This document shows positions 32,139 to 36,645 of a stretch of DNA of 64,000 nucleotides, in pieces (within the stretch, counting starts at the first letter, position 1; the number at the start of each line of letters is the position of its first letter). This stretch comes from Candidatus Avimonas narfae (GTDB lineage Bacteria > Bacillota > Clostridia > Oscillospirales > Acutalibacteraceae): the NCBI GenBank assembly GCA_904395335.1, contig CAJFNR010000025.1, positions 1 through 64,000 on the forward strand. The letters are read 5' to 3'. Made by a program: the position numbers and the translations under genes. The notes below the pieces were generated by a model. The model was given only the letters and a program-made list of their open reading frames with translations. It ran no database searches and was not told where the DNA came from.

Positions 32139-32399
32139 ATGGGAGACGCTTTGAGAAAAGCGCTGTTGAAATCGGAGCAGAAGCCGGACGAGATTCATGA
32201 GGCCATTCGGGAGGTATGTGCCCGTCTGGATATGGTGAACAGGCGCTTTGAGATGGAAAGCGACAGCGATCTGATCGAAGCCTGTATTTACGAGATGGAA
32301 TCGCTGCGGGCGCGGTATCGCTATCTGCTCCGGACCGCCAAAAATCGGGGAGTCAAAGCGGAAGGGCTTCCCTATTACCGGGAAGGGGAAGGAACATGA
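32139..32399 (+). CDS. yaaL: DUF2508 (YaaL-like) small protein
   Basis: An 86-residue helical protein reading MGDALRKALLKSEQKPDEIH, with a conserved central IEACIYEMESLRARYRYLL. This resembles the DUF2508/YaaL family, encoded immediately before bofA in Bacillus and clostridia. Function is unknown. Start: ATG 32139 or 32136, both following AAAGGCGGG; the frame extended to 32052 lacks a ribosome site. It overlaps bofA by 4 nt (ATGA). Confidence 0.82.
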   Translation: MGDALRKALLKSEQKPDEIHEAIREVCARLDMVNRRFEMESDSDLIEACIYEMESLRARYRYLLRTAKNRGVKAEGLPYYREGEGT

Positions 32400-32668
32400 G
32401 CCTGGGGTTGCAGATATTTGTCTATGCGTTGGGAATCCTGGTGGTGGTTGCGGTGGGAATCGCCCTGATAAAATCCAAACGTCCGGTCCGTGGCCTGTTG
32501 AGCTCCGGCATTCAGGGGATTTGTGCACTGGCAGCGGTCAACGTGGCCGGGGCTTTCACTACCGTTTCGCTGGGCTTCAATTTGCTGTCCGGGCTGTGCT
32601 GCCTGGTGTTGGGAATCCCCGGCGTCATCACTCTGTTGGTGCTGAAAGTGATTTTTCAGATCGGGTAA
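32396..32668 (+). CDS. bofA: BofA family pro-sigma-K processing inhibitor
   Basis: A 90-residue membrane protein with hydrophobic segments near 5-25, 35-55 and 62-88. The conserved C-terminal part, VNVAGAFTTVSLGFNLLSG then CCLVLGIPGVITLLVLK, is typical of BofA. In Bacillus BofA holds the SpoIVFB protease inactive until the forespore signal arrives. The gene order yaaL-bofA is preserved. Confidence 0.92.
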   Translation: MSLGLQIFVYALGILVVVAVGIALIKSKRPVRGLLSSGIQGICALAAVNVAGAFTTVSLGFNLLSGLCCLVLGIPGVITLLVLKVIFQIG

Positions 32669-32674
32669 ACTTAC

Positions 32675-32726
32675 AAAACCGTATAAAAACCGGCTGGAAA
32701 CTTCCAGCCGGTTTTTATACGGTTTT
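32675..32726. terminator. 25-bp perfect inverted repeat, bidirectional terminator
   Basis: Two 25-nt arms (32675-32699 and 32702-32726) are exact reverse complements around a 2-nt centre. Each arm contains AAAAACCGG/CCGGTTTTT, giving a U-rich 3' side on either strand. It lies between bofA and the convergent small gene, overlapping the latter's last codon. Confidence 0.9.
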
Positions 32727-32907
32727 ATTCCGTTTTTTCACGTCCTCGCTTGGCCACGTATTCCTGTATTTCCGGGAGAGAAGCCAGGTCCTGCTCGGCG
32801 ATCTCCGCCTGGAGATGGGGCGGGAGGGAAGAGAAGAACTCGTAGCTGGACAAATCCTGTTCCAGCAGGTCGGAAAGGCCTAACCGGTATTGGCGGTCGT
32901 CTGTCAT
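32725..32907 (-). CDS. 60-residue unknown protein, paralogue B of a tandem pair
   Basis: A 60-residue acidic, soluble protein starting MTDDRQYRLGLSDLLEQDLS. It aligns without gaps to the 60-residue protein encoded just upstream. Shared residues are G10-L11, L14-L15, D18, aromatic pair 24-25, S27-L28-P29 and Q33. The C-terminal third is diverged and ends with charged KRGREKTE. It lies 10 nt downstream of its paralogue in the same direction, so the two are co-transcribed. No known family is recognised. Confidence 0.72.
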   Translation of the reverse strand: MTDDRQYRLGLSDLLEQDLSSYEFFSSLPPHLQAEIAEQDLASLPEIQEYVAKRGREKTE

Positions 32908-32917
32908 ATCCCGCCTC

Positions 32918-33100
32918 CTACATACACTCCATGGCGTTTTCCGCCTGCCGTCTCAACTCGTCGGCAGAATCGATGCGGGCGCCGCTGTTGCGCAGCGTAT
33001 CCTGAATATATCCCGGAAGGGACTGATAATAGTGGGCCGCCTCCTCATCGGAGCGCAGCAACGCCTCCAGTCCTCCCGCCGGGGAGGGCGATGGGTTCAT
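32918..33100 (-). CDS. 60-residue unknown protein, paralogue A of a tandem pair
   Basis: A 60-residue protein starting MNPSPSPAGGLEALLRSDEE, with the segment YYQSLPGYIQDTLRNSG followed by ARIDSADELRRQAENAM. A perfect GGAGG ribosome site 8 nt before ATG 33100 decides the start; a longer frame to 33127 would swallow it. It has two predicted helices around a conserved SLPxxxQ turn. I have an impression of similar short helical proteins in gut clostridia but know no function. Upstream, on this strand, is a TATAAT at 33180-33175. Confidence 0.76.
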   Translation of the reverse strand: MNPSPSPAGGLEALLRSDEEAAHYYQSLPGYIQDTLRNSGARIDSADELRRQAENAMECM

Positions 33101-33174
33101 AGAAAAGCCTCCTTTTATCCAATGCAAGAGAAGAATGGAATTCGGACAGGCTTAGTTTGCGGCTTTCTTTTCGG

Positions 33175-33203
33175 ATTATACAGGAAAACGGCGGGAAAGT
33201 CGG
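33175..33203 (-). promoter_or_regulatory. Possible promoter of the tandem 60-residue genes
   Basis: On the minus strand, CCGACT, a 17-bp spacer and TATAAT. The -10 is perfect and the -35 is weak. It faces away from spoIIIAA. Confidence 0.45.
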
Positions 33204-33282
33204 GACAGGCCGGTTCTATCGTGCCAAAACCCGTCATACATATGGACATACCGGGACAAGTCAAGGGAAAGGATGTGCGCGA

Positions 33283-34302
33283 ATGAACGAATATGCTCAG
33301 GCCGTCATGGGCTTGCCTGCCCCGCTCAGGGAAGTGCTGCAGAAAGTTCCCCGGGAAATTGGCGACAGGGTACAGGAAATCCGTCTGCGCCTGGAGGCGC
33401 CGGTAATGCTGTCCACCCCGCAGGGGGAGTGGTTCGTGACAAGAGAGGGACGGGTAACGCCGCGCGCGACAGAAGATACCCTTTTCTGTACCCGTACGCA
33501 GCTCTCGGATGCTTTTCAAATCCTATGCGATTTTTCTGTACATACCCATCAGCAGGAGCTGAGGCAGGGATACCTTGCTGTACGCGGTGGCTGTCGGGCA
33601 GGCGTGGCGGGGACTGCGGTGGTGGAAAACGACCGGATCCAATCCGTCCGTAGCATCACTTCCCTGTGTCTGCGGGTGGCCCGCCGGCATGACGGCTGCG
33701 CCAGGGAACTGGCCCGTTCCTTGGTGCATTCCGCTGCGGGCGGGAAAGCTTCCATGCTTTACAGCACGTTGATCTGCGGTGAACCCGCCAGCGGAAAGAC
33801 AAGCCTCCTGCGCGACCTGGCGCGGGGGCTTTCCTCCGGGGACTATGGTGAAATCCGGCGTGTAGCGGTGGTGGACGAGCGTGGGGAGCTGTCCGGTGCG
33901 GGCGAACTCCCGTTGTGTGATGTGCTGCGCGGCTGTCCCAAAGCGGAAGGAATCCAACAGGCGGTACGCTGCCTTTCCCCCGAGGTGGTGCTATTCGATG
34001 AGCTGGGTAGCCGGGAGGAGACGCAGGCGGTGCTGGCGGGCCTAAATGCGGGTGCCGCTGCCATAGCTACAGCTCACTGCCGGGACATCGGCTCCCTGCT
34101 GCGCCGCCCGCAGATCCGTATGGCCCTGGAAGAGGGGGCCTTTGAGAAGGTGGTATTGCTGCAGGGGCGCAGGCACCCGGGAGAAACTGCGCGGATTCTG
34201 TCTGCGGACGATGTCCTTCGGTGGAAAGACACCGATTCCGTTTCCGACGGGGGACTGGGGCGGCGCTTTTCCGTTCCCGCCGGATGGGGGAATCGGCCGT
34301 GA
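33283..34302 (+). CDS. spoIIIAA: Stage III sporulation protein AA (SpoIIIAA ATPase)
   Basis: A 339-residue secretion-type ATPase of the mother cell-forespore channel. Walker A is GEPASGKTSLLRDLA, Walker B is VVLFDELGS, and VAVVDERGELSG is also conserved. The N-terminal domain carries RVQEIRLRLEAPV and a QGYLAVRGGCRAGVAG segment. GGGAAAGG precedes ATG 33283; the frame extends to 33157 without a ribosome site. A CATACATA element at 33235-33242 resembles a sigma-E -10, as expected for this operon, but its -35 is poor. Confidence 0.95.
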   Translation: MNEYAQAVMGLPAPLREVLQKVPREIGDRVQEIRLRLEAPVMLSTPQGEWFVTREGRVTPRATEDTLFCTRTQLSDAFQILCDFSVHTHQQELRQGYLAVRGGCRAGVAGTAVVENDRIQSVRSITSLCLRVARRHDGCARELARSLVHSAAGGKASMLYSTLICGEPASGKTSLLRDLARGLSSGDYGEIRRVAVVDERGELSGAGELPLCDVLRGCPKAEGIQQAVRCLSPEVVLFDELGSREETQAVLAGLNAGAAAIATAHCRDIGSLLRRPQIRMALEEGAFEKVVLLQGRRHPGETARILSADDVLRWKDTDSVSDGGLGRRFSVPAGWGNRP

Positions 34303-35074: not shown

Positions 35075-35479
35075 ATGGAAATAGCGGCCATAGCCGGATT
35101 GACGGTGGCGGCGGCCTTTTTGGCAGTGGTCCTTCGCCAACACAAACCGGAATTTGCCCTGGCGGTGGGACTGATGGCGGGTATTGTGATTCTGGCCGTA
35201 TGTCTGCGCAAAGCGGCCCCGGCCCTGGGCAGCCTCAGCGATCTTCTGAACGCCGCTTCCCTTCCGGCGGAATACGGCGCCGCTTTATTTAAGGCGCTGG
35301 GGGTCTGTCTGTTGACCCAGCTGGCCTCCGACGCCTGTTCCGATGCGGGGGAAAAGGCGCTGGCGGCTAAGGCGGAGCTGGCAGGCAAGCTGGCTATGCT
35401 GCTTATCGCCCTGCCGCTGTTTGAAAAAGTGGCGGAAATGGCGGTTTCGCTGATGAACGGACAGGCGGTGAGCGGATGA
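35075..35479 (+). CDS. spoIIIAD: Stage III sporulation protein AD
   Basis: A 134-residue membrane protein with about four helices. The C-terminal half (LCLLTQLASDACSDAGEKAL-like, then KAELAGKLAMLLIALPLFEK) is the best conserved part of the family. It is a channel component. ATG 35075 follows AAGGGGGACGG, and the stop overlaps spoIIIAE by 4 nt. Confidence 0.94.
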   Translation: MEIAAIAGLTVAAAFLAVVLRQHKPEFALAVGLMAGIVILAVCLRKAAPALGSLSDLLNAASLPAEYGAALFKALGVCLLTQLASDACSDAGEKALAAKAELAGKLAMLLIALPLFEKVAEMAVSLMNGQAVSG

Positions 35480-36645
35480 AACGGGAAAAGGTGCTTTGGC
35501 TTCTCCGTTCCCTCCTGCTGATGATTATGCTGACGATGGTGATGTGTCTGCCGGCAGGTGCGGAAGGAGGGGCAGCGGAATGGGACGAGCTGTATCAGGA
35601 ACAGGCGGAGGCCAGCGGTGCCGGAGACCTGCCGGATAATCTGCCGGAGGAGACCCGCCAGCTGCTGGATCAGCTGGGGATCACCAGCATCGACGCGGAG
35701 GGATTTTCTTCCCTGGAACCGCAGGGGGTGTGGAAGGCGTTGGCGGAGCTGACGGGACAGGAGGCGTCGGGACCGCTCCGCTCAGTTGGCGTGGTGTTGG
35801 GGGTGGTGCTGCTCTGTGCTCTGATGGAGGGAATGAAGCAGACCCTGCGTGATCCGAGCGCCTCTCCGGTTTTTCAGGTGGTGTGTGTGTTGGCTGCCTG
35901 CGCGGCGTTGTTGGTTCCCCTTTCCTCCTGCGTGCAGGCGGTATGCCGGGCAGCGGAAAGCACCTCGGTGTTTATGGGCAGTTTTGTACCGGTGTACGCG
36001 GGAATTCTGGTAACCGCGGGGCATGCGGTGACGGCGGCTTCCTATCAAACGGTGGTACTCTTTGCGGCCGAGCTGATTACCCTGCTGGCGACCCATTTGT
36101 TGGTCCCCCTGCTTACGGTGTCCCTGGCTCTGGGGATGGCTGGTTCCTTGGATACGGGATTGCGGTTGGATTCCCTGAGTTCGGCGATCAACAAGGGGGC
36201 CGCTTGGCTGCTGGGAATCACCACGACCCTATTTGTAGGACTGCTGACCCTTCAGGGGATTGTCGGAGGGGCAGCGGATACCCTGTCCAGCCGGGCGCTT
36301 CGGTTTTCCCTCTCCAGTATGGTGCCGGTGGTGGGCGGCTCGCTTAGCGAAGCATTCAGCGCCGTGAAGGGCTGCCTGGGCCTGCTCAAATCCACTGTAG
36401 GCGGCTTTGGTATGCTGGCGACGGCTTTGATTGTGCTGCCGCCTCTTTTGCAGTGTGCTGTGTGGTCCCTGGGGCTCGCCTTGTGTACGGCGGCGGCAGA
36501 GCTTTTCGGTTTGGGACAGATCAGTGCCCTGCTCCGATCCGCTCAGGCGGTGGTCAAAACGCTGATTGCCGTGCTGGCCGCCTGTTCGCTTTTTATGATT
36601 GTGACCACTGCCGTCGTCACTGCGGCGGGAGGCGCCGCCGTATAG
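35476..36645 (+). CDS. spoIIIAE: Stage III sporulation protein AE
   Basis: A 389-residue protein with a signal-like first helix (9-30), an extracytoplasmic segment (to about 95) and six or more membrane helices. Conserved blocks include SFVPVYAGILVTAGH, DSLSSAINKGAAWLLGITTT and RFSLSSMVPVVGGSLSEAFS. It is the largest membrane subunit of the SpoIIIA-SpoIIQ channel. Confidence 0.95.
   Translation: MKREKVLWLLRSLLLMIMLTMVMCLPAGAEGGAAEWDELYQEQAEASGAGDLPDNLPEETRQLLDQLGITSIDAEGFSSLEPQGVWKALAELTGQEASGPLRSVGVVLGVVLLCALMEGMKQTLRDPSASPVFQVVCVLAACAALLVPLSSCVQAVCRAAESTSVFMGSFVPVYAGILVTAGHAVTAASYQTVVLFAAELITLLATHLLVPLLTVSLALGMAGSLDTGLRLDSLSSAINKGAAWLLGITTTLFVGLLTLQGIVGGAADTLSSRALRFSLSSMVPVVGGSLSEAFSAVKGCLGLLKSTVGGFGMLATALIVLPPLLQCAVWSLGLALCTAAAELFGLGQISALLRSAQAVVKTLIAVLAACSLFMIVTTAVVTAAGGAAV

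Follow-up and report, generated by a model that had tools for sequence, protein, structure and literature searches.

Two adjacent minus-strand genes, P1 (P0001) and P2 (P0002), lie between bofA and spoIIIAA in the window, i.e. the whole stretch of 64,000 nucleotides that was analysed. They raise the question of whether two such small proteins are related to each other, and whether their location among sporulation genes reflects a role in sporulation. The original prediction of two minus-strand genes of 60 residues each was confirmed at the level of the open reading frames (Table 1), and Pfam matches of the neighbours corroborated the position, with DUF2508 and BofA on one side of the pair and SpoIIIAA, AB and AE on the other.

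Table 1. Coordinates of the features at the P1-P2 locus, numbered along the window
Feature	Coordinates	Strand	Description
bofA	32396..32668	+	convergent neighbour, separate unit; Pfam PF07441, E 8.9e-13
Hairpin	32675..32726	.	24-bp perfect, T-rich tails on both strands; -39.8 kcal/mol, z -9.9
P2 (P0002)	32725..32907	-	60 aa + stop; subfamily II, 'LGLSDLL.QDLSSYE[YF][YF].SLP'
Shine-Dalgarno AGGAGG of P2	32914..32919	-	overlaps P1 TAG stop; from sequence
P1 (P0001)	32918..33100	-	60 aa + stop; subfamily III, '..LL..D..A..Y[FY].SLP.Y[IV]Q..[IL]..'
Shine-Dalgarno AGGAGG of P1	33108..33113	-	from sequence
Putative forespore (sigma-F/G)-type promoter of P1	33153..33181	-	GTATA (33177-33181)-N17-CAAACTA (33153-33159); sequence pattern
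spoIIIAA	33283..34302	+	divergent neighbour; Pfam PF19568, E 1.6e-57

The gene pair and its family

The GGAGG site attributed to the first gene was retrieved, and not for P1 alone, as P2 is also preceded by AGGAGG. The overlap between the latter and the P1 stop codon, which reads ATG-TAG-GAGG, suggests that P1 and P2 are probably co-translated. According to terminator prediction, the hairpin separating the pair from bofA is terminator-like on either strand, and it is the terminator common to the two convergent units.

A gapless fit of two proteins of equal length had been noted. The residues concerned (G10, L11, L14, L15, D18, the aromatics at 24-25, S27-L28-P29 and Q33) do coincide and both proteins have 60 aa, but in a proper alignment a gap of two positions opens after roughly residue 39, P2 being two residues shorter in the loop that precedes helix 4, whose predicted start is residue 46 in P1 and 44 in P2. 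In view of this gap and of the lengths of the relatives (45-74 aa, median 58), the equal length of P1 and P2 is due to chance. Pairwise BLASTP gave no alignment between them, so that homology could not be proved from the two sequences by themselves. When a profile was trained on 93 relatives, excluding P1 and P2's subfamily, it recovered P1 with E=4e-18 and P2 with E=4e-10, the best of 2,000 P2 shuffles against the same profile reaching E=0.01. On this profile evidence, P1 and P2 are homologous, as paralogues of one small SLP family.

Profile searches detected four copies in the present genome, the pair being accompanied by C17:30138-30320 and C3:4307-4459. Clostridial homologues, the search for which had been proposed as a check, were found in 65 of the 150 genomes of the GTDB family, with up to seven members per genome. 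Members were also present in 30 of 243 genomes sampled over the class (~12% of the sampled Clostridia) and in two of 299 genomes of a phylum-wide sample, the present genome being one of the two. Named carriers include Anaerotruncus, Acetanaerobacterium, Anaeromassilibacillus and Candidatus Gallacutalibacter; locus L018 of genome G028 lies within a 158-aa protein and was removed as a false match. Most members are acidic (median pI 4.9; 4.5 here), and the orthologues of the pair within the genus have 60 and 61 aa.

Head-to-tail clusters, usually of differing subfamilies, were observed in about twenty genomes, and single copies were common. P2-like members were paired with P1-like ones in G000, G002, G128, G160, G138 and G064, and other combinations occurred elsewhere. 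The neighbours of the family genes differ in nearly every genome, and the adjacency to bofA and spoIIIAA, whose conservation was to be checked, holds within the genus (G000, G001 and G002) and not beyond. Since head-to-tail pairs recur in unrelated places, this position is a genus-level accident, and the neighbourhood loses its value as sporulation evidence. Among other neighbours, a Nif11-domain protein is encoded just upstream of a family pair and on the same strand (L090 5101-5379, G064:C16). In two relatives, a similar short protein with a TNPTVQPD[DG]KTEM motif and no Pfam match directly follows a family member (L014 1595-1864 and L016 1637-1894).

A lack of homologues and a lack of purifying selection had been named beforehand as refuters of the original prediction, and neither was borne out. 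The dN/dS values found across family comparisons with measurable dS (0.02-0.30) indicate that the P1/P2 family is under purifying selection. The P1 orthologue in G002 is 55% identical with a dN/dS of 0.30, and the P2 orthologues in G001 and G002 gave 0.22-0.23 where dS was unsaturated. AlphaFold2 models of moderate confidence support the helical nature of both proteins, with four short helices each: residues 10-17, 19-27, 30-39 and 46-58 in P1 (pLDDT 79.6), and 11-17, 19-27, 30-39 and 44-58 in P2 (pLDDT 75.2). In these models S27-L28-P29 caps helix 3. The PDB fold search returned no credible match (the best being a SCAN domain for P2, E 1.7), nor did the PDB sequence search, whose top matches were designed barrels, and no match to the models was found in a viral fold library. 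The small binding or adaptor module first suggested is accordingly a conjecture. Against Pfam, NCBIfam and PHROGs, P1 and P2 scored below every family cut-off and no curated entry covers the family.

A pair of tiny neighbouring genes whose translation is coupled might also represent a two-gene toxin-antitoxin or phage-related module. This is extremely improbable, given that P1 and P2 are homologous to each other, that single copies are common, that none of 47 members matched the PADLOC anti-phage models and that phage and plasmid searches yielded one weak phage contig and no plasmid. Judging from the sequence searches, the family is an uncatalogued, multi-copy group of small proteins (about 45-75 aa) from spore-forming Clostridia, helical and for the most part acidic.

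Promoter sequences and association with sporulation

The region upstream of P1 contains a putative promoter of the sigma-F/G type, compatible with either factor, its -10 sextamer being separated from the P1 start codon by 53 nt. It is one of two strict-pattern matches on both strands of the 64 kb window. The pattern originated from the reading of the family upstream regions, in which a CAWACTAA-like element was seen just 5' of the ribosome site. The sequence [AC]A[ATC]A[AC]TA was present within 110 nt in 57 of 90 leader genes, mostly at 20-29 nt from the start, and a G three bases upstream of this -10-like element was found in 36 of the leader genes. When sites were chosen on the -10 alone, G[ACT]AT[AG] occurred at 16-18 nt upstream in 15 cases, compared with a mean of 1.1 for the same spacing in shuffles, none of 2,000 reaching 15. 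With the third -10 position left free, the full pattern was displayed by 19/90 family genes versus 1/261 control genes and 26/4,500 shuffles; the motif having been derived from the same family sequences, these family counts do not amount to a blind test. The remaining family leaders mostly carry the -10-like element alone. In the phylum-level outlier genome, the single member (L234, G535:C72) is preceded by GTATA-N17-CAATACTAA, which fits the family promoter rule.

The -35 spacing and a control on spoIIR are the more independent parts of this evidence. The spoIIR gene is a sigma-F target in C. difficile, where the sigma-F and sigma-G consensus elements resemble each other and those of B. subtilis (PMC3789822). 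The pattern was matched by spoIIR in 14 of 29 relatives as compared with 7 of 261 controls, typically as GWATA-N17-CATACT, with the -10 pattern relieved of its final A after the spoIIR sequences had been read; with the final A retained, the control looked negative. For these genomes, the GWATA-N17-CATACT of the spoIIR loci (L204-L231) provides a usable forespore consensus. SASP genes, taken as a sigma-G control, carried the -10-like element in 18/29 cases and the full pattern in 2/27; their resemblance to the family pattern is stronger in the -10 than in the -35 element.

On the other side of the intergenic region, divergent from P1, CATACATA is found upstream of spoIIIAA at 33235-33242 (within 33200-33260) and resembles a sigma-E -10 element. 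If this reading is right, the sequence between P1 and spoIIIAA would drive mother-cell transcription towards one side and forespore transcription towards the other.

Co-occurrence with spoIIIAE was scored at E<=1e-10, the model's own cut-off (247 bits) being too strict for this lineage. In the GTDB family, spoIIIAE was present in 64/65 family-positive versus 66/85 family-negative genomes (p=1.4e-4), and in 54/54 versus 53/61 when only genomes at least 90% complete were considered (p=0.007). For the class, the figures were 29/30 and 155/213 (p=0.0025). These counts refer to genomes, not to independent events, and partly reflect shared ancestry. The cut-off of NCBIfam TIGR02829 (SpoIIIAE) was reached by none of the 150 GTDB-family genomes despite clear homologues (window 35476-36645 and relatives).

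This shared ancestry is central to another reading, in which the family would consist of general housekeeping or stress proteins of Clostridia, the motif and the association with sporulation being its by-products. Consistent with this, about half of the spoIIIAE-bearing genomes lack the family, the neighbours outside the genus are mostly non-sporulation genes and only 19 of the 90 leaders have the full promoter. However, the promoter pattern lies far above control genes and shuffles, the -35 spacing was recovered without being selected for, no sigma-70-type promoter was found in 32400-33400, and a member occurs in just one of the 20 GTDB-family genomes without spoIIIAE. Housekeeping proteins are on balance unlikely. 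The predicted link to sporulation is thus supported, by way of sigma-F/G-type promoter sequences before P1 and across the family, the spoIIR control and the spoIIIAE co-occurrence rather than by the neighbourhood from which it had been drawn.

We consider it fairly probable that P1 and P2 are acidic, helical spore proteins made in the forespore from one two-gene unit, which bind or stabilise other proteins. The homology of the two genes, their pairing, the selection acting on them, the promoter-type sequence, the association with sporulation and the operon order all find support in the sequences. As to the mechanism, we infer that the pair would be transcribed in the forespore as one unit from the sigma-F/sigma-G-type promoter, transcription stopping at the terminator shared with bofA, and that the diverged tandem copies would be produced together via coupled translation. 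The products would most likely be kept in the spore interior, where amphipathic helices around the SLP turn would bind other proteins and thereby stabilise or regulate these partners in dormancy or outgrowth.

The small size, the acidic charge and the coupled expression of diverged paralogues would also suit forespore regulators, i.e. small helical binders of a sigma factor or of another regulator, with the paralogues opposing each other; Gin/CsfB is an example of a small forespore regulator. A fixed regulatory pair would hardly be expected to occur in up to seven dispersed copies per genome or commonly as single copies, however, and nothing resembling a known family of regulators was found, so that a regulatory function seems improbable. 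Many gut Clostridia spread as spores, but what is known of spore proteins is drawn mostly from C. difficile and Bacillus. The present family, which is constrained, multi-copy, without a curated name and equipped with forespore-type promoters, adds a set of candidate spore proteins across many families of Clostridia. Cultured species such as Anaerotruncus colihominis would allow a direct test.

Antioxidant genes next to family members

Among candidate partners, the antioxidant enzymes of the spore rank first, at low confidence. In the sister species G002 (L003/L078, G002:C36), a gene for an Fe/Mn superoxide dismutase lies directly upstream of the P1-P2 orthologues, and the three-gene unit stands behind GTATA-N18-TACACTA, at the place of the P1 promoter here. 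G001 (L079, G001:C8) has P2 alone, with GCATA-N18-AACACT. The locus thus varies within the genus, from superoxide dismutase-P1-P2 (G002) to P1-P2 (here) and P2 alone (G001). A search of the present genome gave no match to Fe/Mn superoxide dismutase; a loss in this genome or a gain in G002 is therefore probable.

Similar arrangements were encountered elsewhere. The order member-superoxide dismutase-member-member was seen in G151 and member-member-ferritin in G019, and in Anaerotruncus (L146, L147 and L148) a desulfoferrodoxin gene is followed on one strand by three members of three different subfamilies. Superoxide dismutase loci adjoined a member in 2 of 29 cases, for which chance was roughly estimated at ~0.008, the association having been spotted after the fact. 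In C. difficile, sodA is expressed in the forespore under sigma-G (PMC3789822), and the production of SodA is confined to sporulation, the protein being found in the spores (PMC11980386). The link between the family and superoxide dismutase or other antioxidant enzymes is suggestive only. A more specific version, in which the members would be spore-interior partners of antioxidant metalloenzymes (superoxide dismutase, superoxide reductase, ferritin), each paralogue being fitted to its own client and the pair serving other clients where the locus has no enzyme gene, as here, is distinctly doubtful. Were it true, spores of strict gut anaerobes would thereby survive air.

Comparison with known systems

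Nine of 36 members weakly matched the OmdA / YdeI C-terminal domain (PF13376; best E 2e-5), and these matches were colinear with the first two-thirds of the domain. P1 and P2 gave no match to it, however; the individually printed matches were all of the 'LPLGF..ALAQN' subfamily type, another subfamily, their best score was 23.6 against a cut-off of 25.6 bits, and the small proteins stand alone. Residues 23-39 of P2 resemble the ubiquitin binding region UBM (PF14377), a eukaryotic motif, with 20.3 bits, under the cut-off of 23.3; this resemblance most likely corresponds to a shared helix-capping pattern.

A closer parallel in general features is offered by the minor small acid-soluble spore proteins, e.g. 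SspH-SspP and Tlp of Bacillus, which are likewise very small, mostly acidic, lineage-limited, present as several dispersed copies and preceded by forespore-type promoters. On these grounds, the family could belong to the bulk of small proteins in the spore or serve as a store of amino acids. Unlike the minor SASPs, it has a conserved helical core with Y[FY].SLP and recurrent tandem pairs of diverged subfamilies. P1 has no Pfam match, and no SASP family was among the Pfam matches of P1, P2 or 36 members. A folded core around SLP and a strong constraint would be unexpected of a pure store, which makes a SASP-like role very unlikely.

A further comparison is with forespore antioxidant genes such as C. 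difficile sodA. This gene is expressed in the forespore (PMC3789822), and in G002 and G151 family genes belong to the same unit as a gene for superoxide dismutase. The family members themselves are not enzymes, and most genomes, including the present one, lack such neighbours.
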